This document shows positions 14,522-33,379 of a stretch of DNA of 33,379 nucleotides, in pieces; positions within the stretch are counted from its first letter, which is position 1; each line of letters starts with the position of its first letter. Source of the stretch: Burkholderiaceae bacterium (GTDB lineage: Bacteria > Pseudomonadota > Gammaproteobacteria > Burkholderiales > Burkholderiaceae); assembly GCA_947482555.1 (NCBI GenBank), contig CANKKB010000005.1:1-33379 (forward strand), given 5' to 3'. The position numbers and the translations under genes are program-made. The notes under the pieces are model-generated. The model was not told the DNA's origin, searched no databases, and worked only from the letters and a program-made list of their open reading frames with translations.

Positions 14522-14543
14522 AGGATTAGCTTGATTTACAGAA

Positions 14544-17485: not shown

Positions 17486-17552
17486 TAATCTATTCGCATC
17501 GATTTTTTTGTCATTATTACAGCTGCTCGCCTTCTTTGGGCTAAAGACGTTA

Positions 17553-17936
17553 TTAAACCAAGGCTAAAGCCTCGATCTCAATTAAAAAACCATGATGCAA
17601 TTCGGGCACGGGAACTACGGCTCGTGCTGGCAGAGCGGCATCAGCCCATTGGGCATAGATTGTATTAAAAAGAGGCCAGTATTTAATATCAGTAATGTAA
17701 ACACGTACCTGTACTAGGTTCTCGATCCTCGAACTGGCTGCTTCTAATGCGGCCTGTAGGTTAATCAATACTTGATTGGCTTGATCTTCAAAGCTAGCGG
17801 AATTCAATTGCTGGCCTGCTGCTGTAATCGGTAGTTGTCCGGAAATAAAGGCCATCCCATTGCTAACCACGACATGGCTGTAATGCCCTCCCGGAGGGGC
17901 CATCGTCTTTGGATTGCAGTACTTAATCTTTGACAT
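17553..17936 (-). CDS. RidA/YER057c/UK114-family protein
   Basis: YSHVVVSNGMAFISGQLPI, NLVQVRVYITDIKYWPLFN, ARAVVPVPELHHGFLIEIEA. Confidence 0.9.
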   Translation of the reverse strand: MSKIKYCNPKTMAPPGGHYSHVVVSNGMAFISGQLPITAAGQQLNSASFEDQANQVLINLQAALEAASSRIENLVQVRVYITDIKYWPLFNTIYAQWADAALPARAVVPVPELHHGFLIEIEALALV

Positions 17937-17942
17937 CAGCAA

Positions 17943-19079
17943 TTACCAGCCATAAAAACGCTCCCATGCGGGGCCAATCACATACTGATCATTAATGGGA
18001 TGGTAGGTAGGAAATTGGGCTCCGGTTGCACAAGCATGATTAGGCAAAATGCGTAATTGTGTACCCACGGGAAAGCGGGATGTGATGGCTTGATCGTTAT
18101 CTGTCTTAACTTGGCTTAAGATGCCGTGCTCCTGATTTGCGGCGATGAGTTGATAACCCTCAATTACGATGCCACTTGCATCGCAAACTTGCCCATATCC
18201 ATAATCAGTTAATTGTTTTTGCGTGCCTCGATCGCGGCTCATTGCCATCCATCCTGCGTCTACAATTGCCCACCCTTTATCTACTTGGTGGCCAATCACA
18301 GTAGTTAAAACACTGAGCGCAATATCGTTTATAGAACATACTCCCACGTTTGACATTACTAAATCATAAAAAACATATACTCCCGCTCTTACTTCAGTTA
18401 CGCCCTCGAGCTGCTGTGCTGATAGTGCAGTGGGGGTTGAGCCAATGCTGACATTGGGGCATGGTAGGCCAGCAGCGCGCAGTCGGCTTGCTGCCAGTAC
18501 ACAAAGATTACGCTCTTGTTCAGCCAACATTTGTAGTGCGGCTGGGGTATTGAGGTCATAACTTGAGCCAGCATGGGTCATTACTCCGCCTAAGGTTTTT
18601 TTATGCCGATTCAAAATGTGGCCAATAGTAATTAATTCTTCGCCCTCGGGCTTCACACCTGAGCGATGACCATCCGTATCAATTTCAATCCAAACTTCAA
18701 AGGGCAATTTATGTGCCGCAGAGTAAGCCATGATGGCAGATGCAGACTCAACACTATCCGCAATAATTTTTAAAGCACATCCCCGCTGTATTAATGCAGC
18801 TGCCTGGTTTAATTTTGGCGCAACCATGCCTACTGCATACAAAATATCGTTGATACCAGCAGCAAAAAATTGCTCCGCTTCTTTAAGGGTGGAGACAGTA
18901 ATCCCTTTAGCCCCAGCAGCAATTTGAGCTTGAGCAATAGCAATACATTTTGTGGTTTTTACATGAGGCCTAAAGGCAACGCCCAAATGATTCATGCGTT
19001 GCTGCATCGTTTGAATATTGTGCGTCATCCGAGTTGTATCGACTAATGCCGCGGGCGTAGTCAGCTCATGGAAGTGCAT
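17943..19079 (-). CDS. DSD1-like PLP enzyme (D-threonine aldolase / D-serine dehydratase-like)
   Basis: TPAALVDTTRMTHNIQTMQQR...FRPHVKTTKC, IEIDTDGHRSGV, LPNHACATGAQFPTYHPI. Confidence 0.9.
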   Translation of the reverse strand: MHFHELTTPAALVDTTRMTHNIQTMQQRMNHLGVAFRPHVKTTKCIAIAQAQIAAGAKGITVSTLKEAEQFFAAGINDILYAVGMVAPKLNQAAALIQRGCALKIIADSVESASAIMAYSAAHKLPFEVWIEIDTDGHRSGVKPEGEELITIGHILNRHKKTLGGVMTHAGSSYDLNTPAALQMLAEQERNLCVLAASRLRAAGLPCPNVSIGSTPTALSAQQLEGVTEVRAGVYVFYDLVMSNVGVCSINDIALSVLTTVIGHQVDKGWAIVDAGWMAMSRDRGTQKQLTDYGYGQVCDASGIVIEGYQLIAANQEHGILSQVKTDNDQAITSRFPVGTQLRILPNHACATGAQFPTYHPINDQYVIGPAWERFYGW

Positions 19080-19639
19080 TATTCAATTTTTTGCTTTAAA
19101 TAGTTGATAACCCAAGCTGCATCGCTATCGCTTGGAAATATAGGGTAGTGCACGGCTTCAATTACGCCATTATTGACAATCAGCGTTACTCGCTTTAATA
19201 AAGTCATTCCTGCAGCAACAAAGGAGGGCATATTTAATGCTTTTTGAAATTGATAATTCATATCGCTCACAATTGGAAAAGGGAGATGCAAGCGCTCGGC
19301 CATTTCTTTTTGATATTCCGGCGTTTGTACGCTAAGGCCCAGTACCGCTGCGTTCAGTGCTTGAAGTTCTTGGTAATGATCTCTAAATGAACAGCTTTGG
19401 GGGGTGCATCCCCTCGCGCCTGGAATTTGATCCCAGCCATCGGGCAGAGCTATATTGGGCTGCCCCGTCATTGGATAACAATAGATGACTAACTTACCTC
19501 CAACCTCGCTTAGTGTAATCGTCTCGCCATTCGTAGCGCTTAATGAGACTGCCGGAAGCCGCATTCCTATTAAATGATTAGTTGCACCGTCATCTTGAGG
19601 AATAGGCAGATCTGCGGGCAGTTGATTGTAGTTAGTCAT
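19079..19639 (-). CDS. Peroxiredoxin/redoxin-domain protein
   Basis: LPAVSLSATNGETITLSEVGGKLVIYCYPMTG...GARGCTPQSCSFRDHYQEL. Confidence 0.85.
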   Translation of the reverse strand: MTNYNQLPADLPIPQDDGATNHLIGMRLPAVSLSATNGETITLSEVGGKLVIYCYPMTGQPNIALPDGWDQIPGARGCTPQSCSFRDHYQELQALNAAVLGLSVQTPEYQKEMAERLHLPFPIVSDMNYQFQKALNMPSFVAAGMTLLKRVTLIVNNGVIEAVHYPIFPSDSDAAWVINYLKQKIE

Positions 19640-19657
19640 GACAAATTTAAATGTAAG

Positions 19658-19966
19658 TTACGCCTTTGGATTCATGCGATAAAAGACCAATAAGTCATTT
19701 CTTTGAATCGGTTCAGCTAGATCGGCCTGAATATCGTTCAAGAAAGCGGCAAAGTCAGCGGTATCTTCTAGGGAAGCTGCATCGGCTGCATTTTCCCAAA
19801 TACCAAAGCCTTCAATATTATTTTGCGCTTGATTACCAACAATAATGACATCGTGTAGATCGGGGTGATGTGCCATGACTTGCTCTGCAAATTGATGATA
19901 GCGATCGCATACTTTTTTGAAGGACCCTGGCTTTGATTTTAGTGATATGTGGCCAACATGTGACAT
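19658..19966 (-). CDS. ABM-like (antibiotic biosynthesis monooxygenase fold) protein
   Basis: GHISLKSKPGSFKKVCDRYHQFAEQVMAHHPDLHDVIIVGNQ...FGIWENAADA. Confidence 0.6.
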   Translation of the reverse strand: MSHVGHISLKSKPGSFKKVCDRYHQFAEQVMAHHPDLHDVIIVGNQAQNNIEGFGIWENAADAASLEDTADFAAFLNDIQADLAEPIQRNDLLVFYRMNPKA

Positions 19967-20093
19967 AGATATGCTTTCTTTAAGTTAGTAATAAAATTGC
20001 TCGGTGGATCAATTTAAGGGTGATTGACTACTTTACTATAGGAATGCTATCGGCAACTTAATCCAGGGCACTATTAATCTTAAATCTCAACTA

Positions 20094-20498
20094 ATGAATA
20101 TTACCTATTCCCGTGCAACCCAAATTTCTGTTAAAGAAGCGATTGATCTTTATGTTAGATCGACACTTAGTGAAAGGCGCCCAATTCATAGTCATCAGAT
20201 ATTTGAGAATATGTTCAAGCATGCCAATTTAATCGTCTCTGCATGGGATGAGGATAAGCTCGTTGGTATTGCCCGCTCATTAACCGATTTCTCCCATGTT
20301 ACCTATTTATCAGACTTAGCGGTAGATGTTCAATACCAAAAGATGGGTATTGGGAAAGGGCTAATAGAAGGGACGAAATTGAATCTAGAGCCTGGGTATA
20401 TGTTGGTTCTGCTGGCCGCACCTAAAGCAAGGGAATACTATGGGCCTCTTGGCTTCGAACAGCACCCAAGCGCGTGGGTACTTAAGAAAGCGCTTTAA
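20094..20498 (+). CDS. GNAT family N-acetyltransferase
   Basis: LVGIARSLTDFSHVTYLSDLAVDVQYQKMGIGKGLIEGTK. Confidence 0.9.
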   Translation: MNITYSRATQISVKEAIDLYVRSTLSERRPIHSHQIFENMFKHANLIVSAWDEDKLVGIARSLTDFSHVTYLSDLAVDVQYQKMGIGKGLIEGTKLNLEPGYMLVLLAAPKAREYYGPLGFEQHPSAWVLKKAL

Positions 20499-20510
20499 AT
20501 ACGATGAACA

Positions 20511-21005
20511 TCATCTAGCGTATTTAATTAATTCTGCATAATCTTCTTCAAAAACCTCACCAACTTCTTTATAAATCAACTTATTTTTTGAGTCGATAAT
20601 CAGCAGTACGGGTACTCCACGAATTTTGCCAATTGCTTGATTGAGCTCAGCTGTCATCATTGCCGCCGGAAAACTATATTGGTTTTGTCGCATATATTCT
20701 TTGGCAATGGCCGGCGTTTTATCAATGGAAATAGTTAGGATATTCATTGATCCAGGAGAGATTTGCTTCGAGAATTTTTCTAGGTAGGTATTTTGGCGCT
20801 TACAAAATGGACACCATGATGCCCATAATTGAATGAGCGTATTTTTTGTATTATTTTTGGGGATTTCAAAATAAGTGCCATCTAGGGTTTGTATCTTTTC
20901 TAACGGCAGTGTTTGACCAATCTCGATTGCTATTACTGCGCTCGGAATTGCAAAAGAAGCGATAAAAATAAAAACAGCAATACGAGTTTTGATTGGCCTT
21001 AGCAT
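20511..21005 (-). CDS. TlpA-like thioredoxin-fold protein
   Basis: LIQLWASWCPFCKRQNTYLEKFSKQ (CPFC), IRGVPVLLIID. Confidence 0.9.
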   Translation of the reverse strand: MLRPIKTRIAVFIFIASFAIPSAVIAIEIGQTLPLEKIQTLDGTYFEIPKNNTKNTLIQLWASWCPFCKRQNTYLEKFSKQISPGSMNILTISIDKTPAIAKEYMRQNQYSFPAAMMTAELNQAIGKIRGVPVLLIIDSKNKLIYKEVGEVFEEDYAELIKYAR

Positions 21006-21154: not shown

Positions 21155-21991
21155 TCAAATAATTGGCGCAACTTCTGCTCCATGAGGTCTTTTATATCGG
21201 TTATAAGACCACATATATTGATTTGGTTTGGAGATGATCATCTCCTCAAAATATTGATTCATCAGACCACAGGCTTCGTCTAAACATAAGGGGTAGCTTT
21301 CTATCATTAGCCGAGTCTTTATGAGCCAACCTTTACCAAGCCTAAGCCTTTCGGCGCTGACGAAAAGCGTAGCCACATTGGGTTGTCGAGCTAATTTTGC
21401 TGGAAAGGAAGTGGTGTAAGCGTATTGATTAAAAAATTTAGCCCAGACTCCATCTCCTGCGCTAGGGACCTGATCAGCGAGGATACCAACCACCTCGCTC
21501 TTCAGTAATGCGCGTTTGATTTTGCGCACACCACTAAGATTTGCTTCAACAAATTCCATTTGGGGATGCTGACGTAATTTAAGTATTAACCTATTAAGCC
21601 AGAGTTTTCGGGACGGACGGTACATTACAGTAGCTCTCATGTGCTGAGCAAAAATTCTTGGCACTATTTCAAAACCGCCTAAATGGGTGGCTAAGATAAT
21701 TAAGCCCCCATCACTTTTAGACAATGCAATAATTTGCTTCAAGTGTTCAACGCTTGTTTTTACGATAGATGCTTTGGGGTGCCCCCAGATCCATAAAGTA
21801 TCGGCATAAATCATTCCGGATTCGATAGCTGCTCTCCAGGGGCTAGATTTAAAGCCGGAGTAATGTGCCGCACTGAGGTGATTTTTATTTAAGCGCCTTC
21901 GATAATGCGCAGAGCTTAAATAAACTGACAACCCTATGCCGGCTCCCATGACCTGCAAAACAGCCAAAGGTAGGGCACTAAAAAGACTCAA
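21155..21991 (-). CDS. LpxL-family lysophospholipid/lipid A acyltransferase
   Basis: LIILATHLGGFEIVPR, TVMYRPSRKLWLNRLI, GILADQVPSAGDGVWAKFF, QYMWSYNRYKRP. Confidence 0.88.
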   Translation of the reverse strand: MSLFSALPLAVLQVMGAGIGLSVYLSSAHYRRRLNKNHLSAAHYSGFKSSPWRAAIESGMIYADTLWIWGHPKASIVKTSVEHLKQIIALSKSDGGLIILATHLGGFEIVPRIFAQHMRATVMYRPSRKLWLNRLILKLRQHPQMEFVEANLSGVRKIKRALLKSEVVGILADQVPSAGDGVWAKFFNQYAYTTSFPAKLARQPNVATLFVSAERLRLGKGWLIKTRLMIESYPLCLDEACGLMNQYFEEMIISKPNQYMWSYNRYKRPHGAEVAPII

Positions 21992-22050
21992 TATGAATTA
22001 CAACATTGGCCATTCTAGACCTTATAAGAATAACTGCTTAAAGACGGTTT

Positions 22051-22090
22051 TGAGGTGCCGGGCTGAATCGAACCGCTGACACAAAGATTT
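22051..22090 (-). repeat. Degenerate tRNA-Phe 3'-half remnant (scar F)
   Basis: gaggtgccgggctgaatcgaaccgctgacacaaagatttt aligns to ggtggcccggggcggaatcgaaccaccgacacaaggatttt of scars A/B with several substitutions. Confidence 0.65.
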
Positions 22091-22091
22091 T

Positions 22092-22481
22092 TTATTCAGT
22101 CTTTTGGCGCTTAGCAATTTCTCTATTGATTTCCTCAAGCATAGATTTATTTGGCGAGATCCAATAGCCTCCTGATTTATTCACCATGTAAGTTAATGCT
22201 TCAGAAAATTGCTCAACTGATAACTCTTTCTTGCCACCTCTTAGCGGCATTGCTCTTACGCCTACATAACCATGTGCAGTAATGATTATCTGTCCTTCGC
22301 TAATTAATTTTTTCCAAGCATTTTGATCGCCTATTTTTGGAGCATTTGCGACTCCTGAGCTATGGCAAGCAGCACAGACCTCTTTATAAATGTGTGCGCC
22401 ACTAGCATTTTTTTCTTTGGCAAAAATAGACGTGGAAAAAACTAGGGTAATGATTAAGCATAGGGTGAATTGAATCTTCAT
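22092..22481 (-). CDS. c-type cytochrome (monoheme)
   Basis: Signal peptide; EVCAACHSSGVANAPKIGDQNAW; stop codon immediately beside scar F. Confidence 0.88.
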   Translation of the reverse strand: MKIQFTLCLIITLVFSTSIFAKEKNASGAHIYKEVCAACHSSGVANAPKIGDQNAWKKLISEGQIIITAHGYVGVRAMPLRGGKKELSVEQFSEALTYMVNKSGGYWISPNKSMLEEINREIAKRQKTE

Positions 22482-22506
22482 TAATAAAGCCTTAAAACGA
22501 CAATAA

Positions 22507-23154
22507 TTATTGAGTTAATGTAGGTAAAGAGCCGCTGACTACGAGATAAAAACAATACGTCCATACGATAGCTAGACCAGTGCCAACCCAATACATTGGG
22601 TACCGAATTGCTTGCTCTGGCATGCCTTGTTTATTTCCAGTAACCATAGCCCTCACTAAATTTTCTTTTTGTAAAAAGCTCATGATGATTGCAGCGGCTA
22701 TATGAATCACAACAATAATTAACGTGAGATTGGCAATTGCTTCATGTGCTCCGTTCATGAGGTCCCCAAGAAACTCTCTGACGCTCCAATAGCCGGTTAA
22801 GCCAATGAGTAGGATCAACACCATCAATGAAATCATTGCCAAAGCGCCCGCGGGATTATGTCCAATCCCAGGATGTTGGTTGCCTGTTAATAGTGACTTG
22901 ATATGACAAATCGTTTCTACAGGGCCTTTAATAAACTGAGTAAAACGAGCATACTTAGTGCCAACTATTCCCCAAATGATTCTAAACAGCACTAAGGCGC
23001 AAGCGGAGTACCCAAACGCATAGTGAATCATTTGCTGCGCCTCACTTTCAGAAGTGAGCCAAGCGCCCGTAAATGAAACCACCAAAAGCCAATGAAAGAC
23101 TCGGACAGGAAAATCCCAAACTAGAACTGTTTGTTTTGGCTTAGAAGAAATCAT
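22507..23154 (-). CDS. Cytochrome b561-type membrane protein
   Basis: VWDFPVRVFHWLLVVSFTGAWLTSE, four TM segments with conserved His. Confidence 0.88.
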   Translation of the reverse strand: MISSKPKQTVLVWDFPVRVFHWLLVVSFTGAWLTSESEAQQMIHYAFGYSACALVLFRIIWGIVGTKYARFTQFIKGPVETICHIKSLLTGNQHPGIGHNPAGALAMISLMVLILLIGLTGYWSVREFLGDLMNGAHEAIANLTLIIVVIHIAAAIIMSFLQKENLVRAMVTGNKQGMPEQAIRYPMYWVGTGLAIVWTYCFYLVVSGSLPTLTQ

Positions 23155-23609
23155 TTTGCTGGTATCCGAATATTGTCTTCATTAAAAATGCCTTTGGCGG
23201 CATCCGTATGACAAGCAGCACAATTGGCTGGACTCTTAACCCCCGCTCTTTTCCAGACCTCAGCCCTTACCTCATCATGCTTACGAATAAACCAAGCAGT
23301 TTTAGTGATGCGATTCTCTGGAGCAAAAGCCGCATACTTTTGCTTTGTAGCGGCATTTTTAAGTAGCCACTGAGTAATTTCAGATTCAGTTTTCGCATCA
23401 AGGCTTGCGTCTGTACCAAAATGCTTATCCAGACCAGACATGATATTTTGCCAATTCTTCTGAGTCAATAATCCGGGCGGGTATGCCATGTGACAGCTAG
23501 CACACTCTGCCTCATATGACTTAGGAGTATCAGCTGGCATGGCCATTCTTGCTGCAGAAGCTGGTATTGCTAATAAGGCTAATAATGATAGGAGAAAGTA
23601 GGTTTTCAT
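23151..23609 (-). CDS. Diheme cytochrome c (DHC-like)
   Basis: YEAECASCHMAYPPGLL and ANCAACHTDA: two CXXCH. Confidence 0.9.
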   Translation of the reverse strand: MKTYFLLSLLALLAIPASAARMAMPADTPKSYEAECASCHMAYPPGLLTQKNWQNIMSGLDKHFGTDASLDAKTESEITQWLLKNAATKQKYAAFAPENRITKTAWFIRKHDEVRAEVWKRAGVKSPANCAACHTDAAKGIFNEDNIRIPAK

Positions 23610-23616
23610 AAGCGCC

Positions 23617-24000
23617 CTATTTAACCGTCAATAGCCAAGAGAGTACATCGGCTTTTTCTTGGGCGGCGCACTCCCGACCGAGTACATCATTACAGTTGCG
23701 CTTAAACCACTTTTCAACCTTAGCTTGATCAGTAAATCTATCAAGGTTGCTATTGGGCGATAAAGGCTTAATAAGCTTACCTGTAACGATATGCTTGGTA
23801 TCGTGATTGGGGGGGGCTTCATGACAAGAAGCGCAACTCCACTCTTTGCCATGTTTCGCATTAAATAATTGTTCGCCGCGAGCTGAAGATGCCTTGCCGG
23901 ACTGAGACTCGTATCCCTTTAATAAATCTTGCGGGCTTGCTGCAACAGCCGCCCCAATTAAACCAAGAAATGCCAAAACTAAAACTATTTTTTTCTGCAT
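23617..24000 (-). CDS. DUF1924 / sphaeroides heme protein (SHP)-like monoheme cytochrome
   Basis: GEQLFNAKHGKEWSCASCHEAPPNHDTKHIVTGKLIKPLSPNSNLDRFTDQAKVEKWFKRNC. Confidence 0.85.
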   Translation of the reverse strand: MQKKIVLVLAFLGLIGAAVAASPQDLLKGYESQSGKASSARGEQLFNAKHGKEWSCASCHEAPPNHDTKHIVTGKLIKPLSPNSNLDRFTDQAKVEKWFKRNCNDVLGRECAAQEKADVLSWLLTVK

Positions 24001-24087
24001 GCTACTTTATCCGATATATCTAACTTTTTAAGTATGCACTCATTAAGTGACGTAATATGAGTATTAAAATAATAATGAACTTCTTTC

Positions 24088-24101
24088 ATGATTTAGATCA
24101 A
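24088..24101. promoter_or_regulatory. FNR-like site upstream of the SHP/DHC/cyt b operon
   Basis: ATGATTTAGATCAA, one mismatch to TTGAT-N4-ATCAA, ~90 bp upstream of 24000. Confidence 0.5.
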
Positions 24102-24210
24102 ATAAAGTAGGGGTGTCTTAAACCACATTGACTAACGCAAATATGTGAACTAGATGCGTCCTTTTATATAGCATCATTGCACGCAAAAAATAACTTTGCG
24201 CCCCGCAAAT

Positions 24211-24236
24211 AAAAAACCACCCGCAGGTGGTTTTAA
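24211..24236 (-). terminator. Rho-independent hairpin associated with tRNA-Phe scar A
   Basis: AAAACCACC-CGCA-GGTGGTTTT, 9-bp stem, immediately 3' of the tRNA remnant on the minus strand. Confidence 0.75.
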
Positions 24237-24243
24237 TGTTTCT

Positions 24244-24288
24244 TGGTGGCCCGGGGCGGAATCGAACCACCGACACAAGGATTTTCAA
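24244..24288 (-). repeat. tRNA-Phe 3'-half remnant (scar A): anticodon loop to CCA
   Basis: Reverse complement TTGAAAATCCTTGTGTCGGTGGTTCGATTCCGCCCCGGGCCACCA; 5' half absent; identical 45 bp to scar B. Confidence 0.85.
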
Positions 24289-24473
24289 ATATTCTCCGAT
24301 AGGCCGCTTTCGCTTTGATTTCAAGGGCTTGAGTCACCAGTCTCGACTTGTCAAAAAATTGTGCGTCCTTGTGCCGGTCAAATTTGGCAATGAAATCAGA
24401 ATCATGCGAGGGGCAATTTTTCTGTGTGTGCAGATTGTGTTGCCATTCCTGCGCCAGTCAACCACCATAGTGT

Positions 24474-24504
24474 CTTGTAATGTCGTTTTAAACGACATTA
24501 CAAG
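24474..24504. repeat. 31-bp perfect palindrome (15-bp arms, 1-nt centre)
   Basis: CTTGTAATGTCGTTT-T-AAACGACATTACAAG. Confidence 0.95.
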
Positions 24505-24566
24505 TTGCTAGAATCTAAGAAACGTCGCTTAAATAAACACTCAGCCAGAACAGGGGTCGCCTGACT

Positions 24567-25490
24567 CTATTTCTTATTAACTAACGAAACGCCTAAGACT
24601 GCGATAAGGCCGCCCACGGCCATTGAAATTAATATCGGCTCGCCAAGTAATATTGCCGAAAACAGAACACCAAATGCCGGAACCAAGTTAGTAAAAATTG
24701 CTGTGCGTGATGGTCCTACCGTTTGAATGCCTTGGTAATACCAAATAAATGGGAGAACAGTTCCAAAAGCACCTAAGTAGAAAACTGAAGTCCATACACG
24801 CCAATCTAGAAGCATCCAATCAATATCTTTGAACTCGCGAACAGCGCCAATACTTAAAAATACAAATCCCCATAAAGTGCTGTAAGTAGTGGTAACAATA
24901 GGTGAAAGCGTCTCTAAGACCTTGCGTGAAATTAATGTGCAAGTGGCCCAACTCAAAACAGCGCCAAGCATCATTAATTCGCCCAACCCAAGTGATTGAC
25001 TGATATCGGCAATGCCCCCAATCAAATCGCCACGCGTAATCACAACAATGGCGCCAAGAAGCGCAACCACGATGCCTATCCAACGACGCAAGCCAAGCCT
25101 CTCACTAAAAATGAGACCTGCCAAAATAGCAGTCACGATTGGAGTAAGACTTACAAATAAAGAGGTGCGCCCTGCAGGCACTCTTGCTAATGCGCCAAAA
25201 AAACAGATGTTGTAAAGAAAAATACCTGTAAAGCCTAAAACGGCAGTTAGCAATATTTGCTCGCGATTTAAGCGTGGCAACTTTCCTTCCATTTTTACCG
25301 CAACAATTACCAACAATATTGACGCAACAAAGAACCTGCCAAATGCCGCGGTCATTAATGGCAAGGACTGGGCCAGAAACCTTCCCGCGATAAAAGTTCC
25401 GCCCCAGAATGCAGCAACCATAACCAGCTTGAATGCCAGCAAAGGCGTCATTACTGAAAGATTGGCTATTTTCATTTTCGAAGAATACAT
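24567..25490 (-). CDS. EamA/DMT-family transporter (second copy in window)
   Basis: MVAAFWGGTFIAGRFLAQSLPLMTAAFGRFFVAS; ten hydrophobic segments. Confidence 0.85.
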   Translation of the reverse strand: MYSSKMKIANLSVMTPLLAFKLVMVAAFWGGTFIAGRFLAQSLPLMTAAFGRFFVASILLVIVAVKMEGKLPRLNREQILLTAVLGFTGIFLYNICFFGALARVPAGRTSLFVSLTPIVTAILAGLIFSERLGLRRWIGIVVALLGAIVVITRGDLIGGIADISQSLGLGELMMLGAVLSWATCTLISRKVLETLSPIVTTTYSTLWGFVFLSIGAVREFKDIDWMLLDWRVWTSVFYLGAFGTVLPFIWYYQGIQTVGPSRTAIFTNLVPAFGVLFSAILLGEPILISMAVGGLIAVLGVSLVNKK

Positions 25491-25516
25491 TACGAGAACT
25501 AATGCCAGCCCAAATG

Positions 25517-25539
25517 TAAAACCACCCGAAGGTGGTTTT
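25517..25539 (-). terminator. Hairpin terminator of the same family as those beside tRNA scars A and B
   Basis: AAAACCACC-CGAA-GGTGGTTTT; no recognisable tRNA piece attached. Confidence 0.65.
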
Positions 25540-25567
25540 ACAATTCATACTAAATTGGTAAACAAGT

Positions 25568-25924
25568 CTAACTGCTTATTGGCTCACCATATTTATTAGC
25601 ATCCTTCTCACCATCAGATACAAACCAAACAATAAGCAGAATGATGCCGATAATTGTGAAGGCGAGTAGCTGCCACCATCCACTTCTGCCAGTATCATGC
25701 AGCCTCCTTGCACCAACAGCGATGCTTGGCAGCAATAATGCCAAGGAAACTAGGCCAGTAAGCATGTTGCCAGAGTCTCCCAGAGTTAGACTACCAACGA
25801 TTGATGCTCCCCAGGTTAGCAGTATTTGAAACAAATAAAACCACCAATATTCACCTCTAGTGGCCCTGCCTTGAAAATTTGCGTATTTTCCCATGCATGA
25901 TGCAATAGCTTGGCTAAATCCCAT
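25568..25924 (-). CDS. DUF805 family membrane protein
   Basis: YANFQGRATRGEYWWFYLFQILL...SIAVGARRLHDTGRSGWWQLL. Confidence 0.92.
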   Translation of the reverse strand: MGFSQAIASCMGKYANFQGRATRGEYWWFYLFQILLTWGASIVGSLTLGDSGNMLTGLVSLALLLPSIAVGARRLHDTGRSGWWQLLAFTIIGIILLIVWFVSDGEKDANKYGEPISS

Positions 25925-26055
25925 ATCATCTCCCGTTAAATTTATATTTCTTTGTAGTTATATCTTATAATAACTATAACTAACCCTGCCATGAGACTCG
26001 TTGCCCTATTCTCACCGAGACTAATGGGGTCTAATCCTGTCGGGCCTTAAAAGAA

Positions 26056-26078
26056 AATAGCCCAACAAGTGGGCTATT
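26056..26078. terminator. Hairpin beside tRNA scar C
   Basis: AATAGCCCA-N5-TGGGCTATT. Confidence 0.65.
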
Positions 26079-26086
26079 GAGATTCT

Positions 26087-26120
26087 TGGTGGCTCGAGGC
26101 GTAATCGACCAGGGCCTAGG
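26087..26120 (-). repeat. tRNA 3'-end remnant, class II (scar C), degenerate
   Basis: tggtggctcgaggcgtaatcgaccagggcctagg; shares CCAGGGCC(T)AGG with scars D and E. Confidence 0.6.
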
Positions 26121-26285
26121 AAATCCATCCACCTAGCGCTGATACACCATTACATTAATGCCACACGCCATCGGTACTTGAATAATCGAAAGAGATAGGT
26201 TGGCAGGCTGAAACATGGGGAAATTAGAGACCTCTACTATTAAATTTTTGGTATCCTGAATCTTTCTATTTCAACTTATTTTCCC

Positions 26286-26606
26286 TTGAGTATTTACTGG
26301 CTATCACTCTTTTTGGCAGGTTTTGTGGAGATTGGCTTGCCGCTTGGCTTAAAGCTCTATGGCCTCCCTAATATGAAAATATGGGGCATCGTTTTGGCCC
26401 TTATTAGCACGACGCTAAGCGGAATACTTCTCTTGTTTTCACTTAAGGAAATTCCTATTGGAACAGCCTATGCCATATGGACTTCTATTGGCGCTGTTGG
26501 CACTTTCACTATTGGTGTTCTAGTTTTTGGAGACCCTAATATTCCGATACGCTGGTTTGGTGTTGCATTCATCTTACTTGGAGTTATTTTGCTAAAGATT
26601 GGATAG
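26286..26606 (+). CDS. Small multidrug resistance (SMR; SugE/QacE-like) transporter
   Basis: YWLSLFLAGFVEIGLPLGLKL...IPIGTAYAIWTSIGAVGTFTIGVLVFG. Confidence 0.9.
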   Translation: MSIYWLSLFLAGFVEIGLPLGLKLYGLPNMKIWGIVLALISTTLSGILLLFSLKEIPIGTAYAIWTSIGAVGTFTIGVLVFGDPNIPIRWFGVAFILLGVILLKIG

Positions 26607-26623
26607 CCAAGCCCATAAAAGAA

Positions 26624-26648
26624 AATGCCCTGCACGAAGCAGGGCATT
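26624..26648. terminator. Hairpin beside tRNA scar D
   Basis: AATGCCCTGC-ACGAA-GCAGGGCATT. Confidence 0.8.
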
Positions 26649-26658
26649 ATTTAAATCT

Positions 26659-26694
26659 TGGTGGCCCGGGGCGGAATTGACCAGGGCCTTAGGA
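26659..26694 (-). repeat. tRNA 3'-end remnant, class II (scar D)
   Basis: tggtggcccggggcggaattgaccagggccttagga. Confidence 0.7.
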
Positions 26695-26715
26695 GACTCT
26701 CATCCTACCTCTAGA

Positions 26716-26934
26716 CTACTTCCAGCTAAGGTTCAATTTCTTATGCGAAGCGGCGCAATCTCTCAAATAGAGATTAATGAGGCTTTGATAAGGAATGCCA
26801 ACCTCTTCTGATACAGATTTGAAGTAGCTCACTGAATCCTCATCCAATCTAATAGTAATGGGCTTCTTAAGCATGGAAGCATATGGATTTTTACGAGCTT
26901 TTGAGAAATCATATTCTTTACGCATCTTCATCAC
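26716..26934 (-). CDS. brnA: BrnA-family antitoxin
   Basis: KKPITIRLDEDSVSYFKSVSEEVGIPYQSLINLYLRDCA ribbon-helix-helix; adjacent to BrnT. Confidence 0.85.
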   Translation of the reverse strand: MMKMRKEYDFSKARKNPYASMLKKPITIRLDEDSVSYFKSVSEEVGIPYQSLINLYLRDCAASHKKLNLSWK

Positions 26935-26936
26935 CT

Positions 26937-27215
26937 TTAATAAGCTTTTGACTCTTTAGGGCTTGCCTTACGAGCCGAAATAATACGAACGACATTGCCC
27001 TCGCTTCGATAACAATGGCAAACCAAAATCACACGAAGAGAATGGCTTACGCCCAGCAAAATAAATCTGTCTTCATCCTCCGAATGATCGGGATCGGAAA
27101 TTAACTTAGCACTTTCATCATAAAACACCGATTTTGCTTCTTCAAATGAAACGCCGTGTTTTTTCAGATTGGCTGAAGCTTTTCTGGGCTCCCATTCAAA
27201 TCGCAATGAAGTCAT
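26937..27215 (-). CDS. brnT: BrnT-family toxin
   Basis: FEWEPRKASANLKKHGVSFEEAKSVFYDESA...VVRIISARKASPKE. Confidence 0.92.
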   Translation of the reverse strand: MTSLRFEWEPRKASANLKKHGVSFEEAKSVFYDESAKLISDPDHSEDEDRFILLGVSHSLRVILVCHCYRSEGNVVRIISARKASPKESKAY

Positions 27216-27232
27216 ATGTACATTGTACATAT
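27214..27232. promoter_or_regulatory. Palindromic operator candidate of brnTA
   Basis: ATATGTACA-T-TGTACATAT, 19-bp perfect palindrome overlapping the brnT start codon. Confidence 0.65.
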
Positions 27233-27269
27233 ATCAATTAGAAGAAGCAAGTCCGCTCGATCAAAAGAA

Positions 27270-27294
27270 AATGCCCCGCACGAAGCAGGGCATT
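27270..27294. terminator. Hairpin beside tRNA scar E (near-identical to scar D hairpin)
   Basis: AATGCCCCGC-ACGAA-GCAGGGCATT. Confidence 0.8.
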
Positions 27295-27303
27295 ATTTGA
27301 GTT

Positions 27304-27339
27304 TGGTGGCCCGGGGCGGAATCGAACCAGGGCCGAGGA
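27304..27339 (-). repeat. tRNA 3'-end remnant, class II (scar E)
   Basis: tggtggcccggggcggaatcgaaccagggccgagga; the hairpin plus remnant forms an ~85-bp direct repeat with scar D. Confidence 0.7.
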
Positions 27340-27343
27340 TGCC

Positions 27344-27862
27344 TTATCCAAGCTCTGATTCATTAAAAGCATCTCTTATATACACAGGCAAATCTATTGA
27401 GGGCGGTCTAAAGCCCGACTGGTAAAACATGTCTCCAATATGGCCGCGATGAAATGCTTTGTGATTACAGATGTGAATCAGAATGTCGCCTCTTGTCATT
27501 TCTCCAGCACTGCCATCAACAAAGGAAAAATGAACCTTTTCATTAAGTAGCGACTCACTCATCGTGTCGGCATATTCAATATACCAATCACCCATTTCAT
27601 TCAACTTCTCCGCCAGTAACTCCAAAGAATCTGGCGACTCAGTAGTGCGAGACTTAAATCCGTGATCCATTCCAAGTAAATGGGCTCGCCATATTTGATC
27701 AACAATGGCGACATGTGCCAAAGCGAATGACATTCCGCCAAATGCCGCGGCACGCTGTTTAGTCACTTCCTCAGAAGGTAGGGCGGCTATGGCGTCCAAA
27801 AGCATATTGTTTGCCCACTTGTTATAGCGTGTGAGCATTCGGATATTTCGAACAGCAGACAT
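27344..27862 (-). CDS. DinB family protein
   Basis: RMLTRYNKWANNMLLDAIAALPSEEV, IVDQIWRAHLLG, ILIHICNHKAFHRGHIGDM; start corrected to MSAVRN (the supplied ORF reads through the tRNA scar). Confidence 0.88.
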   Translation of the reverse strand: MSAVRNIRMLTRYNKWANNMLLDAIAALPSEEVTKQRAAAFGGMSFALAHVAIVDQIWRAHLLGMDHGFKSRTTESPDSLELLAEKLNEMGDWYIEYADTMSESLLNEKVHFSFVDGSAGEMTRGDILIHICNHKAFHRGHIGDMFYQSGFRPPSIDLPVYIRDAFNESELG

Positions 27863-27903
27863 ATGGCCTCTTTTGGATAAGTCAGCACAGTCTAACAAAT
27901 GAA

Positions 27904-27927
27904 AAAACCACCCGAAGGTGGTTTTGG
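27904..27927 (-). terminator. Hairpin terminator of tRNA-Phe scar B
   Basis: AAAACCACC-CGAA-GGTGGTTTT. Confidence 0.75.
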
Positions 27928-27934
27928 TGTTTCT

Positions 27935-27979
27935 TGGTGGCCCGGGGCGGAATCGAACCACCGACACAAGGATTTTCAA
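27935..27979 (-). repeat. tRNA-Phe 3'-half remnant (scar B), proposed left attachment junction of the integrative element
   Basis: 45 bp identical to scar A; sequence changes character immediately to the right. Confidence 0.85.
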
Positions 27980-28228
27980 CTCCCTTGCTAGACTCGACTT
28001 CACTTTAAAAACAAGAGGTTGTACCACCCCCTCATTTTTGTGTGCTAACTGTGTTGAGGAAAATCAAAGGGTTGAGTGCGTTTGTGTGTCAGCGTGTTTT
28101 AAACAGTTCAACAGCGTGATTTGAAAAAAGTATTTTTGCTATACCTCTCATCCCCACAACCATTCTTTTTTAAAACACACTTACTCGACGCAAAACCCCC
28201 ACAAATCGACGCATTTTTGGTTATTTCA

Positions 28229-28429
28229 TCAACGAGGGATTTGCGTTTGAGGGTTCATACGACTCTTACTTAATCGTTCTTGTTCCCTTTGACGCTTCTG
28301 ACGTTCCTTCTCATTCTTCAATGCTAACTTCGATTTCTCAACATTCTGCTTCAACGAATACACACGGTACTGTTGGGGGTTGAGAGGCTTTATGGGTTTA
28401 ATCATCTTTGCGAACTCAAAAAATCTCAT
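28229..28429 (-). CDS. Small basic protein of unknown function
   Basis: 66 aa, Lys/Arg/Gln-rich; AAGGAG upstream of ATG. Confidence 0.5.
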   Translation of the reverse strand: MRFFEFAKMIKPIKPLNPQQYRVYSLKQNVEKSKLALKNEKERQKRQREQERLSKSRMNPQTQIPR

Positions 28430-28462
28430 TTACTACTCCTTAAATAACCCGCCTCTCTAAAT

Positions 28463-28477
28463 GTTGTTTAAAACAAC
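28463..28477. repeat. Element palindrome 1 (core; full palindrome 28460-28480)
   Basis: AATGTTGTTT-A-AAACAACATT; abuts the stop codon of 28479-28916. Confidence 0.95.
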
Positions 28478-28478
28478 A

Positions 28479-28916
28479 TTATTTGATGAACCCCTCTCGC
28501 AAAGCACCGCTTACTGATTCGATTTGAGTATCTAACTCTCCTCCCTCAACTGCGGATTTCACAAGTTCCAACGTGCGGATAAGTTCATCTGCGTTAGCAA
28601 CTTCAATAGCGGTTTTACCTTTTGCTAACTCAATCACTTTGGCACCGTATCGAATATTTAGACAAACCTTTCCGTTATCCGACACAAACCACCACTGACG
28701 TACCCTCTTATCCATTTCGACGCTACGTGTAATGCCGTTGATGTCTTTAATACTTTTGAACTTCTTTGTTGTAAATGTTTCTCCAACTTTCTGTGCTTTT
28801 GCTAACTCAATCTGTTCCCATATACGCTTTGATAACTTGTAGCGTCTATGAAGCAAGGGGGACACATTAGTAGGTTTTTTAGCAGTCGTTAGTTTTAGAT
28901 TCGAAAGAATAGTCAT
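28479..28916 (-). CDS. DUF6641-like protein
   Basis: LKLTTAKKPTNVSPLLHRRYKLSKRIWEQIELAKAQ...VRQWWFVSDNGKVCLNIRYGAKVIELAKGKTAIEVANADELIRTLELVKSAVEGGELD; family from memory. Confidence 0.6.
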   Translation of the reverse strand: MTILSNLKLTTAKKPTNVSPLLHRRYKLSKRIWEQIELAKAQKVGETFTTKKFKSIKDINGITRSVEMDKRVRQWWFVSDNGKVCLNIRYGAKVIELAKGKTAIEVANADELIRTLELVKSAVEGGELDTQIESVSGALREGFIK

Positions 28917-29057
28917 TTATTTCTCCACTTGTTTAAGTGTTTTAACTGTATGTTCGTACCCCAAACTTGAACAACCTCTTTTAGTTGATACATCTCAACC
29001 TACCAAATATTTAGTCAGATTTAGCAATGATTTCTTATCACTTCACTAAATATCTAT

Positions 29058-29351
29058 ATGAATCAGAAACAAATAAACGTATTGCGAACCACTTGGTTTA
29101 AAGAAAACGGATTAAGCGAAAAGAAGTTTTCTTCAACCGACGTTCATTTACTTAAGGCACAGAAAACAGCACATAACCTTTTAGAACATCAATCACACCT
29201 ACTGACTAATACACAAACAATCAAACTTAAAACATTTATTCATTCAATGAAAAACCCACAACTACAAAAGAAAATAAGCAAAGGCACCGCATACGCAGTA
29301 TTGAATATTCAAAACAAGATAAACAGACAAAACTACCAACTTAAAAAATAA
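29058..29351 (+). CDS. Hypothetical protein (97 aa)
   Basis: Open frame with coding-like composition; no family recognised. Confidence 0.4.
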   Translation: MNQKQINVLRTTWFKENGLSEKKFSSTDVHLLKAQKTAHNLLEHQSHLLTNTQTIKLKTFIHSMKNPQLQKKISKGTAYAVLNIQNKINRQNYQLKK

Positions 29352-29579
29352 TGAAGATAAGCCACTTCTAAAAAGGGTACAAACGAGGGTTGAAATATGA
29401 CGGCTAATGACCCCTCACTTGTTGGAGACTGCTGTAAAAGTTTCTAACGTATAAGTGGATGCCGCAAGATTTCTCACAAAGCAAACCAATGCTGAAGTGA
29501 GTTGAAAGTTCTAATACATCCGTCTTTCATTAAATCTTTTTACAGCGTGTGAGGTGGGCTTTTTACCGTAAAGCACGAT

Positions 29580-29622
29580 GCGACGACTATAGTGAGTATT
29601 CATCTCTCGCTATAGCCGTCGT
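29580..29622 (+). other. Long imperfect hairpin in the 785-bp non-coding segment
   Basis: GCGACGACTATAGTGAG-TATTCATCT-CTCGCTATAGCCGTCGT; 17-bp arms, one A-C mismatch and two G-U if read as + strand RNA. Confidence 0.6.
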
Positions 29623-30136
29623 ATGGATGAATCATTCTCCGTAAATGAAAAGAACCTCAGCAACTGCGTTGCTATCGGCTTTCTTCTTATATGTAATAAA
29701 GGAGAAGAAGAAATGTGTGAAGCAGAAGCGAAGCGAATGCGAAACACAAGCGAACTTTAGTTCGCTTATACATAACCCCATAGGTTGTAAATCACCATAG
29801 GGATGATTTTTCTGATACCGCAAAAAACTGCGTACCCAAAATTTCTCCATTACATATGAGATTTCTGTATAAGTTTGTAGCAGTACATCAAATACCTTCT
29901 ACAAGCGGTTTTTATTCCTTCTTTGTACTCAGACACCCAACTTCAGTTTTCGACAGCTTATAGCGTTGATTTGACTGTGGCTCTTTGACTACAGCGTAAA
30001 TACAGTGAGTAAAGATTTCTCTACAAATCTTTTCACGTTTTGTAAGTCATTGATTTTTGGAAAGTCTTTTTTCGGTAGGAATATTTCCAATAAGAAAACA
30101 TACTAATAACAACAAAATCTTATATGGAGGTAGAAA

Positions 30137-30706
30137 ATGTCCCAAGCAAAAACTCTTACTCAATCAGAACTTGAACAAGTGCTTCGCTACATCAGCACAA
30201 AACAACGCTACAGCATTAGAAACAAAGCAATGCTACTTACAAGTTATTGGAGTGGTATGCGTGTAGGTGAAATAGCCGCTTTGCGTATATGCGATATTAG
30301 AAATGAAGATGGGACTATTAAGAATGAAGTCCGACTATCTTCTAATCAAACAAAAGGGAATTATGGAAGAACCGTCTTTATCAACGATAAGTTGCGTGAG
30401 GAATGGGGAAACTACTTAAAGTTTCACAAACCCAAAGATTTAACTAAACCACTATTTTTTACTGAGAAGAAGCACGGATTTACTGCGAATACCTTAACTC
30501 AATGGTTCTTTTGGTTGTACCGAAAGGCGGGTGTTAGTGGTGCCTCATCACATAGCGGAAGACGCACCTTTATTACTTCACTTGCTAATAAAGGTATTGG
30601 GGTTAGGGTATTAGCAAGTCTTGCGGGACATCGCAGTATTGCTATCACTCAAACCTATATTGATGTAAATGATGAAATGAAGCGGAAGGCTGTTGAGTTG
30701 GTTTAG
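30137..30706 (+). CDS. Compact tyrosine recombinase/integrase (catalytic domain only)
   Basis: SGMRVGEIAAL (Arg I), SHSGRRTF (HxxR), AGHRSIAITQTYIDV (His/Tyr); 189 aa; GGAGGT upstream of ATG. Confidence 0.92.
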   Translation: MSQAKTLTQSELEQVLRYISTKQRYSIRNKAMLLTSYWSGMRVGEIAALRICDIRNEDGTIKNEVRLSSNQTKGNYGRTVFINDKLREEWGNYLKFHKPKDLTKPLFFTEKKHGFTANTLTQWFFWLYRKAGVSGASSHSGRRTFITSLANKGIGVRVLASLAGHRSIAITQTYIDVNDEMKRKAVELV

Positions 30707-30720
30707 TTGTTTAAAACAAC
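30706..30720. repeat. Element palindrome 2
   Basis: GTTGTTT-A-AAACAAC between convergent stop codons (recombinase TAG 30704-30706 and 30722-31441 stop). Confidence 0.95.
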
Positions 30721-30721
30721 A

Positions 30722-31441
30722 TTAGGGAAATACTCCCCTACCAACATTTTCGATTCTTTTTTCTGCTTGCTTTATATATCTACCAACTGTAGCCGCCATT
30801 CGATTTCTTTTGATGAGTTTTTCACCATTAGTATCTTTTGGTTCGGGCATTGAATCTGCTAATAATCTTTTAGCAACACCAATCTCCCACAACTTCAACT
30901 TCTTATCCCCCTCTCTTGTATTTTTGTACAAGTCATAGACTTCCAATCCAATACGAAGGTTATCAATAGTGAAGTTTTGATTGATTGGGTACTTTGCTGT
31001 ACTTTTTCCAAACTTTTGAACGGGACGTCCTCTTTCGGTTGTATGTCTTTTTTTAAGTATTTGATTGAATATCTTTTTGATAGATTTTTTATCCATACCC
31101 AATGAAATCTTAAGAATCATTAAATCTTCTTTATCCCACTCATTGGGAATCTCATCTTTACTTTGAATCTCATCGATTCGTATGTCTGAACGCTTTTCAG
31201 CAAACAGTGGAACAGCTTTTACTCTCCACCACTCCCTAAAACTTTCTCCCCTTACATCCCCAAAATCTTTATACAACTCAGATAACTTTCCCTTACCTTC
31301 GTTTTCACAGCACTCCAAATAGTCGTTATTTCTTCTTAAATACTCCCACCACCAATAGTAGGGACTCATCTGTTGATACGTCGCAGTCTTTCGGTTGTGC
31401 TTCGTCCCAAAAGTCGGATAGTTCGCAAAAAACTTTACCAT
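30722..31441 (-). CDS. Unknown element protein (~240 aa)
   Basis: NRKTATYQQMSPYYWWWEYLRRNNDYLECC; start could be ATG 31441 or TTG 31456. Confidence 0.65.
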   Translation of the reverse strand: MVKFFANYPTFGTKHNRKTATYQQMSPYYWWWEYLRRNNDYLECCENEGKGKLSELYKDFGDVRGESFREWWRVKAVPLFAEKRSDIRIDEIQSKDEIPNEWDKEDLMILKISLGMDKKSIKKIFNQILKKRHTTERGRPVQKFGKSTAKYPINQNFTIDNLRIGLEVYDLYKNTREGDKKLKLWEIGVAKRLLADSMPEPKDTNGEKLIKRNRMAATVGRYIKQAEKRIENVGRGVFP

Positions 31442-31509
31442 TTTCTTAACATCCAAAATAAACCATATTCGTTAGCCATCGGAAAAAACGTCTAAAAAAC
31501 CTATACTAC

Positions 31510-31530
31510 ATATGTGGTTGCGGCACATAT
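31510..31530. promoter_or_regulatory. Operator-like inverted repeat in divergent promoter region
   Basis: ATATGTG-GTTGCGG-CACATAT, beside a TATACT -10-like hexamer at 31502-31507. Confidence 0.5.
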
Positions 31531-31555
31531 TCTTAACATTTAATAGGAGTTTAAT

Positions 31556-32371
31556 ATGGAAACTTTAGTAAAGCAAACAGCAGTTCAAAACCCAACAACT
31601 TCACAAGAAGTTGTTTTAAACAACATTCCACAAAACACCGCTTCAGCGAAACAGCAGTCTTTAAATCTGCTTGCGAAGTTAAGCGAAGAACGTCAAACGT
31701 GGGAATCCACTGTTTATCGCACCTCAAACGAAATGTTGTACAGCATCCTTCAAAGTTGCTACACAGCAGAGTATGGGATGCGTGGGGGTGAAACAGAAGC
31801 AAAAGAACGACGTGAGGGTTTAAAGGCGTTCGCATCAAAGTTAGGATTCACCTTCAAAGACTCAACCCCCACTATGAACCGTATCGTTCAGTGCGTATTT
31901 GGTGCTGTAAAGCGTTCTCGCATCACTACTTACAGTTTGGTACTGCGTGAAGCGAAAAAGCGGAATATCGCTGTTTCTGATATTCCACAGTTCATTACTG
32001 AGAATGGGGGCTTACAAGAAATCCGTTTGTCAAAGTCGGACAAATACGTATCCCCAAAACAAAAGGTAGAAAAAGCGAGTGGAACTATTGCTTCAAAGAC
32101 GCTTGCTACTGTTTCGAGTCAAACGCTGAGTCAAATCGTAGATGTAGAGAAAGTAGGGGAACTGTGCGTTTTATTAGCAACTCAAAACGCTGATAACACT
32201 TTTACTGTCAAAGCAGTTTCATACGGTAAGACAGCAGTAAATGCTACGTTGGTTTCTGTATATGGAATGTCTGTATCAGAAATGAACGAAGCCGCACGTC
32301 AAACAGAAGCCGCTAATGACAGCACCATTACAAGCGAAATCGTCAATCAAATCGTAAGCACAGTCGTATAA
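31556..32371 (+). CDS. Unknown element protein (271 aa)
   Basis: TAGGAG Shine-Dalgarno, ATG start; no recognised family. Confidence 0.7.
   Translation: METLVKQTAVQNPTTSQEVVLNNIPQNTASAKQQSLNLLAKLSEERQTWESTVYRTSNEMLYSILQSCYTAEYGMRGGETEAKERREGLKAFASKLGFTFKDSTPTMNRIVQCVFGAVKRSRITTYSLVLREAKKRNIAVSDIPQFITENGGLQEIRLSKSDKYVSPKQKVEKASGTIASKTLATVSSQTLSQIVDVEKVGELCVLLATQNADNTFTVKAVSYGKTAVNATLVSVYGMSVSEMNEAARQTEAANDSTITSEIVNQIVSTVV
31610..31624. repeat. Element palindrome 3, inside the 5' coding region of the 271-aa gene
   Basis: GTTGTTT-T-AAACAAC; overlaps AACAACTTC-ACAA-GAAGTTGTT (31594-31615). Confidence 0.95.
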
Positions 32372-32377
32372 CAATGT

Positions 32378-32400
32378 GAGGGGGGGGTAATACCCCCTCC
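32378..32400 (+). terminator. GC-rich hairpin after the 271-aa gene
   Basis: GAGGGGGGGGTAATACCCCCTCC followed by TTCT; weak T tract. Confidence 0.45.
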
Positions 32401-32421
32401 TTCTAACTATTGGAGGAATAT

Positions 32422-33120: not shown

Positions 33121-33125
33121 ACAAC
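33111..33125. repeat. Element palindrome 4
   Basis: GTTGTTT-T-AAACAAC overlapping the ATPase stop codon (33118-33120). Confidence 0.95.
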
Positions 33126-33140
33126 ATATATATATATTCA

Positions 33141-33167
33141 AACCCACCTATACGGTGGGTTTTTTTA
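33141..33167 (+). terminator. Rho-independent terminator
   Basis: AACCCACC-TATAC-GGTGGGTT followed by a T run. Confidence 0.85.
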
Positions 33168-33209
33168 TTGATACCATTCTTATAGTTTTTAATACTTTTG
33201 AATATTTCA

Positions 33210-33379
33210 ATGACAAACGAAACCAACACCGATTGGGAGAATATCCCACACACCAACCCAAACGCTAAGGTTAAATCCCATAGACGTGCTGTTGATACGT
33301 TAGCAATAAGACTTAAATCCGCATCCATTCGAAATGCCGACGTAAGCGGTGTATTTGAAATAGCAGACATTCCGCAACC
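33210..33379 (+). CDS. 5' end of an unknown protein (runs off window)
   Basis: MTNETNTDWENIPHTNPNAKVKSHRRAVDTLAIRLKSASIRNADVSGVFEIADIPQ..., open to window end. Confidence 0.5.
   Translation, partial: MTNETNTDWENIPHTNPNAKVKSHRRAVDTLAIRLKSASIRNADVSGVFEIADIPQ

Follow-up and report, generated by a model that had tools for sequence, protein, structure and literature searches.

The additive islands found at transfer RNA (tRNA) genes are hot spots, and, to our knowledge, it is not known how single genes enter or leave them. Additive flexible genomic islands at tRNA genes have been described from Alteromonas (PMC5217437), "Candidatus Actinomarinales" (PMC7771536), and "Candidatus Methylopumilus," whose flexible genomic island fGI-2 has tRNA-Lys end repeats (PMC10872708). 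Tycheposons, as summarized in the last of these papers, measure 4 to 200 kb and carry their own tyrosine recombinase. Here, we analyze a 33,379-nucleotide (nt) stretch of DNA, the window, which is an entire contig (C5; CANKKB010000005.1) of a 1.95-Mb, 78%-complete Burkholderiaceae assembly (GCA_947482555.1) whose host genus we infer to be Polynucleobacter. It contains a series of tRNA-Phe 3′-end remnants of two classes, here termed E and T. Our data make it probable that the region is a mobile gene-cassette array entering at a single tRNA-Phe gene, with exchange of the class E cassettes by a recombinase acting in trans and with separate class T islands at the same gene.

Results

A sequence-only reading of the window had placed six remnants of a tRNA 3′ end on the minus strand, five of them with a hairpin immediately 3′. 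All six are present on that strand: those at exact positions 24244, 26087, 26659, 27304, and 27935 were matched by a 22-nt tRNA-end pattern with up to three mismatches (0 matches expected by chance, 100 shuffles), and the decayed one at 22051 was recovered by profile. Terminator-like hairpins map directly 3′ of five remnants on the same strand and none at 22051; every segment following a CCA end is a good terminator. The source is tRNA-Phe. The assembly contains the intact gene on the minus strand of another contig, C39, with its 3′ end at 1464, and the gene order in relatives suggests that the window is joined to this contig. An Rfam scan of the window returned zero tRNA matches even at an E value of 5, and a dedicated profile was therefore needed for partial tRNAs.

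A multigenome alignment of the elements, anchored on the T-loop, divides the remnants into two classes. Class T is TTGAAAATCCTTGTGTCGGTGGTTCGATTCCGCCCCGGGCCACCA, that is, tRNA-Phe from the anticodon loop to CCA, with element-specific sequence in front. Class E has in common with tRNA-Phe only (T)TCGATTCCGCCCCGGGCCACCA, from the T-loop onward, and this tRNA core is preceded by a conserved arm, AGGATtAGaCATCCTcGGCCCTGG, that is not tRNA sequence; the portion AGGATtAGaCATCCTcGGCCCTGGT is common to class E remnants and missing from the tRNA. In the window, 24244, 27935, and the decayed 22051 belong to class T and 26087, 26659, and 27304 to class E. The class E element was also considered as a folded single-stranded site or a functional RNA. 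Its consensus folds well, into two hairpins, one of which resembles an acceptor minihelix (z score of −1.9); the pairing shows no clear covariation, being barely above that of independent columns, an excess that can be due to lineage. The boundary features of the window, all on the minus strand, are as follows.

22041..22098, minus: decayed class T remnant (tRNA-Phe 3′ half) at the distal end of the cytochrome module (nhmmer profile, 16.8 bits, E value 0.0012; sequence)
24213..24234, minus: head terminator of the cytochrome module, AAAACCACC type
24244..24292, minus: class T remnant, preceded by conserved sequence that the element carries, AGCGAAAGCGG..TATCGGAG (tRNA-end pattern, nhmmer, alignment)
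25511..25540, minus: terminator repeat that lacks a tRNA core, located between DUF805 and EamA (repeat family D7; nhmmer, 12.6 bits)
26056..26078, minus: head terminator of the TAGCCCA type; the conserved cassette head ..TTAGACCCCATTAGTCTCGG comes next
26087..26129, minus: degenerate class E remnant, att-like (tRNA-end pattern, nhmmer)
26624..26648, minus: head terminator of the SMR cassette, TGCCCTGC type
26659..26705, minus: att-like class E element that ends the BrnTA cassette (tRNA-end pattern, nhmmer, copy alignment)
27270..27294, minus: head terminator of the BrnTA cassette, TGCCCTGC type
27304..27351, minus: att-like class E element that ends the DinB cassette (tRNA-end pattern, nhmmer)
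27904..27925, minus: head terminator of the DinB cassette, AAAACCACC type
27935..27979, minus: class T remnant consisting of the tRNA-Phe 3′ half (anticodon loop onward), at the distal end of the recombinase island (tRNA-end pattern, nhmmer, alignment)

The repeat at 25511..25540 is a possible relic of a lost boundary, and the EamA-plus-DUF805 module around it may be two fused cassettes.

Comparable arrays are widespread in the genus. Across 41 genomes, order-mates outside the genus had at most one tRNA-end match, and most genus-mates had several, clustered. In 74 stretches adjoining tRNA-Phe, all scored elements (about 300) lie 3′ of the gene and are co-oriented with it, with zero upstream; by profile, the fetched arrays hold 275 class E elements, 32 class T elements, and 72 matches to intact tRNA-Phe. 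When one genome per GTDB species was searched, the exact class E pattern was found in Polynucleobacter, in some uncultured betaproteobacterial or Burkholderiaceae metagenome-assembled genomes (MAGs), in Zwartia panacis, and in one Alcaligenaceae MAG from Baikal. Two exact patterns found no class E arms in viral contigs, and an 85-nt query found none in PLSDB plasmids.

The arrays break down into 303 modules with a median length of 1,021 bp, 148 of which have exactly one open reading frame (ORF) of at least 70 amino acids (aa); where a single ORF dominates, it is on the tRNA strand in 176 of 224 modules. Forty-five module families, comprising 141 modules, are common to 2 to 14 genomes over at least 80% of both lengths, and the lengths within a family often agree to within a few base pairs, as in the lipid A acyltransferase family F1 (857, 857, 857, 858, 858, 859, 862, and 876 bp), whose members occupy array positions 0 to 9. 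The order of families is shuffled, 54 of 56 adjacencies being distinct and 2 recurring. Other cargo includes Phd/YefM, patatin, OprB porin, an SbtA-type bicarbonate transporter, an Na/H antiporter, MFS transporters, and cytochrome bd. A module encoding 257 and 483 aa in three arrays was considered as an IS21 transposon and rejected, the larger protein being an OprB porin.

Shared cassettes are 86 to 100% identical where the core locus is mostly 70 to 78% identical. With a 3.5-kb xerC locus as the yardstick, cassette identity exceeded core identity in 31 of 31 comparisons, a count biased by the families having been picked by similarity; that selection does not explain the extreme transfers, with 100% identity over 489 bp against a core of 70% and 98.7% over 1,242 bp against a core of 73%.

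Genome G013 has a class E element together with a longer piece of tRNA-Phe (C1:1378-5208; L222) 266 kb from tRNA-Phe on the same contig, a possible ectopic array fragment. In genome G092 (1560660-1639680), a second tRNA end, GGTTCAAGTCCTGGTGGGCCCACCA, is present in five copies over 80 kb, one of them with one mismatch; these are possibly another array or repeated tRNA genes.

To locate the boundaries of the exchanged unit, cassette pairs of the same family at least 85% identical were compared with random pairs. On the left side, the 45 nt after CCA are alike in same-family pairs (83 versus 71% for random pairs; P = 9e-30), linkage of the left arm is marginal at most (72 versus 70%; P = 0.03), and the sequence upstream of that arm shows none (59.5 versus 58.8%). 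On the right side, the sequence before the arm (86 versus 57%) and the arm itself (76 versus 68%; P = 2e-15) follow the family, and the post-CCA segment does not match (71.5 versus 70.2%). The left post-CCA segment and the right arm are linked to the cassette and the outer flanks are not, which places the exchange in the segment from the T-loop to CCA. These comparisons show a putative mobile unit composed of head terminator, gene or genes, and arm. Four families contain pairs at least 98.5% identical, and in all four the right-hand break of the best pair is in the core; the left break falls in the core in three, and the fourth adjoins the intact tRNA. On this comparative basis, and with exceptions, the class E crossover would lie inside the shared tRNA core.

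Several lines of evidence point to entry at tRNA-Phe. In 33 of 39 arrays, elements are less conserved the farther they lie from the gene (P = 3e-4). The tRNA-proximal slot is enriched for cassettes that have a counterpart of at least 97% identity elsewhere (8 of 17 versus 52 of 269; P = 0.012). The identity of shared cassettes as a whole did not correlate with array index (rho = −0.06; P = 0.52), only the transfers of at least 97% favoring slot 0. Repeated insertion at the tRNA, as the sequence-only reading had proposed, agrees with the polarity seen in the loss of remnant conservation with distance, and the breakpoints and relatives likewise uphold its picture of cassette-like modules, bounded at remnants and stacked at one tRNA.

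Class T differs in its company. Recombinases were sought in the arrays with two profiles (XerC/D type and small recombinases) on ORFs of at least 70 aa: the seven modules that encode one all encode a small recombinase and all end in class T, and no class E module gave a match. Class T modules are also longer (median of 4.6 kb versus 0.94 kb; P = 2e-12). In genomes G002, G009, G011, and G018, islands with a small recombinase inside split tRNA-Phe at the anticodon loop, after GGATTGAAAA or GGACT, and leave the 5′ half behind. A virus-flagged IMG/VR contig has an 8-kb element with the same recombinase between an intact tRNA-Phe and a class T remnant. The split tRNA-Phe genes and this element identify class T as an ordinary kind of tRNA-integrating island. 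The displaced 3′ halves that the sequence-only reading attributed to serial islands stand for class T, where they bound longer islands, some with a recombinase, and are not supported in that simple form for class E, whose remnants are set apart from plain leftover halves by the conserved non-tRNA arm and by family lengths that stay constant across species.

Small recombinases occur in most genomes of the genus, often in several copies, and their presence does not obviously track array size; XerC and XerD are the sole recombinases found in nearly every genome. The window's own small recombinase was considered as the class E enzyme and is not supported in that role: it uses the anticodon loop, class E boundaries fall within the core from T-loop to CCA, and some genomes have arrays but lack it. 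XerC and XerD were likewise considered for this role; judged by eye, class E elements bear no resemblance to a dif site.

Tyrosine recombinases of about 190 to 255 aa without the usual N-terminal part are present several times per Polynucleobacter genome, at many loci (L124-L149, window), and no tRNA gene lay within about 1.5 kb of them in 25 loci. Islands of opposite polarity, leaving the 5′ half, lie within tRNA-Phe at L218, L219, L226, and L227. A 13-kb inovirus-like IMG/VR contig (L154) with a secretin-like protein IV carries a copy of the tRNA-Phe 3′ half at each end. The hexamer GTCTAG lies at most 45 nt upstream of class E elements in 29 of 207 cases (1 in shuffled sequence) and also at the class T remnant at 27935. 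A conserved cassette head following the terminator, ..GGTTAGACGCCATTAGTCTCGGATATCCCC, was found in 32 of 311 heads (the window at about 25990-26058 and 31 others; 0 in shuffled sequence).

The gene functions proposed for the modules of the window were confirmed by Pfam, and the stop codons at 22092, 26716, and 27344 adjoin or run into a remnant.

21155..21991, minus: lipid A acyltransferase, related to cassette family F1 (857 bp, 8 genomes) (Pfam)
22092..24000, minus: cytochrome module with cytochrome c, cytochrome b561, DHC, and DUF1924 (Pfam)
24567..25924, minus: module with EamA transporter and DUF805 (Pfam)
26286..26606, plus: SMR transporter cassette, gene on the opposite strand (Pfam PF00893)
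26716..27230, minus: BrnT toxin/BrnA antitoxin cassette (Pfam; whole-module family F0)
27344..27862, minus: DinB cassette (Pfam; whole-module match to module 4 of G094, 541 versus 540 bp)
30137..30706, plus: tyrosine recombinase of the class T island, 189 aa, catalytic domain only (PF00589, 3.8e-27; phrog_216, 1e-42)

The BrnTA family F0 has 14 members, the window and 13 other genomes, which are 86 to 98% identical in the pairs measured. In an alignment of seven copies, homology ends at the elements on either side, and three copies adjoin an intact tRNA-Phe; BrnT relatives on IMG/VR contigs are 38 to 62% identical. The DUF1924-DHC-b561 group is an array module in G133, too. PF00589 covers nearly all of the recombinase, and positions 27980-33379 are part of the island that bears it, which the contig end cuts. 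A 15-bp palindrome, GTYGTTTWAAACRAC, has five copies in the window (24482, 28463, 30706, 31610, and 33111) and also occurs near small recombinases in L142, L144, and L145.

The nearest relative, G066, is colinear with the window over 12431-21000 at about 81% nucleotide identity, and its stretch from tRNA-Phe to this backbone is wholly different from the window save for part of BrnTA, which is 93% identical. The flank is thus kept and the array replaced, as expected if modules come and go, and the 22- to 28-kb block is not conserved in all relatives. The accessory zone itself is wider than first described, since synteny with G066 returns only below about 20.9 kb.

Discussion

The units, their boundaries, their sharing between species, their shuffled order, and the polarity away from the tRNA are directly visible in the arrays. 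The mechanism that we favor for them starts from a nonautonomous class E cassette, which consists of a head terminator, one or two genes, and an arm of about 25 nt followed by the last 21 nt of tRNA-Phe, from the T-loop to CCA. The cassette, probably circular, would recombine with the 3′ end of tRNA-Phe inside that segment, the incomer restoring an identical tRNA 3′ end and supplying the terminator, and the old 3′ end would shift outward and become the boundary of the next cassette. As tyrosine recombinase genes are absent from all class E modules examined, such an enzyme would act in trans. With their conserved arm and family lengths constant across species, the class E remnants look like the cassette's own recombination site. 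Larger class T islands, with a tyrosine recombinase of about 190 aa, would use the anticodon loop of this tRNA as their insertion site and supply the other remnants, including the two intact ones in the window.

Several points weigh against this model. No recombinase is tied to class E sites, and arrays persist in genomes without the small recombinase (G046, with 10 elements). In several other pairs with identities of 95% or more, the break lies in the arm or past the terminator, which makes later homologous exchange likely as well. Terminator type is only loosely tied to cassette family (69 versus 49%). The sample, one genome per species, contains no same-species strain pair with a clean empty and occupied site, and genomes and families are not independent, in addition to the selection by similarity noted above.

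Some of these points would be expected if RecA-type homologous recombination, for example after natural transformation, acted between the repeats of about 85 bp formed by arm, core, and terminator, with no dedicated class E recombinase today. Similarity between adjacent boundaries indeed reaches about 85 bp at most, the members of a family have exchanged terminator types in part, and in some near-identical cassettes the break is in the arm or past the terminator; the persistence of arrays in genomes lacking the small recombinase and the want of a tyrosine recombinase gene in the class E modules examined also fit. We nevertheless consider this explanation rather unlikely, because the left arm is at most marginally linked to the cassette and the left terminator strongly, which puts most crossovers in the 21-nt core, and because this is also where the break lies in the best pair of each of the four most recent families. 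It also leaves unexplained how new genes first gained an arm and why recent transfers favor the tRNA-adjacent slot.

The literal model of the sequence-only reading, in which successive recombinase islands at tRNA-Phe displace its 3′ half and are trimmed by deletion to single genes, describes class T well: recombinase modules end in class T and are longer, and both the IMG/VR element and the inovirus-like contig bear the same 3′ half as end repeats. As an account of the whole array, it is improbable, given that class E has a conserved non-tRNA arm and that independent trimming would not yield the same module of 489, 586, or 857 bp in several species. That the remnants are repeated terminators or RNA-processing elements spread for expression, with module boundaries incidental, seems extremely improbable, even with good terminators after CCA and a two-hairpin class E fold, when whole repeat-bounded modules travel between species and the pairing lacks clear covariation.

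The trans-acting model remains our preferred explanation. The unit, its ends, and its exchange can here be read directly from many genomes, and the head terminator would be expected to keep the tRNA and each neighbor transcriptionally separate. If a recombinase does act in trans, these arrays would give abundant freshwater bacteria a means of capturing cassettes that parallels integrons, and their repeat would be a simple handle with which to count and sequence the mobile gene pool. We found no description of such arrays for Polynucleobacter in the literature searched, which did not include the principal publication on genomic islands in this genus (doi 10.1128/AEM.02266-16).

Among known systems, integrons, in particular sedentary chromosomal integrons, are alike in their small, mostly co-oriented units of gene and site, which are shuffled, carry toxin-antitoxin cargo, and are added at one end. 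An integron array was ruled out by searches for the integrase IntI (TIGR02249 above its cutoff in 0 of 61 genomes of the genus) and for attC boxes (R″, RYYYAAC, and R′, GTTRRRY, in 3 of 207 element windows, with 3 in shuffled sequence). The arrays differ from integrons in that the entry site is a tRNA gene and each cassette carries a terminator. Tycheposons, as summarized in PMC10872708, share the association of cargo with tRNA genes, a likeness that the sequence-only reading had stressed; it fails on size and on recombinase carriage, as class E cassettes have a median of 944 bp and are recombinase-free, while class T islands do carry one. For class T, the closer match is the Islander class of tRNA islands with tyrosine integrases (PMC4383910), in which the tRNA is split and then restored by the island and the displaced fragment marks the island's end; apart from a minimal recombinase of about 190 aa, class T islands are ordinary members of this kind.

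Additive flexible islands likewise have tRNA-adjacent cassettes, direct repeats of part of the tRNA, and interspecies exchange, and the present locus shares with them cassettes bounded by tRNA fragments and, in G066 versus the window, cassette gain or loss at one locus. The "last 20 bp of tRNA-Lys" printed for Methylopumilus (PMC10872708, Fig. 4F), ACCAGCTGAGCTAATCCCCC, reads like a tRNA 5′ end when reverse-complemented, and that island may, judged from these letters, be of a 5′-half type. Compared with additive islands, the arrays described here have mostly single genes, a dedicated arm, a head terminator, one tRNA genus-wide, and boundaries statistically mapped to the core. We therefore put forward, tentatively and at somewhat less than even odds, that they represent a second, integron-independent form of cassette capture, with entry at a tRNA gene, a T-loop-to-CCA core, single-gene cassettes with a terminator, and a recombinase in trans, spread through the genus and occasionally into other families (Zwartia and the Baikal Alcaligenaceae MAG).

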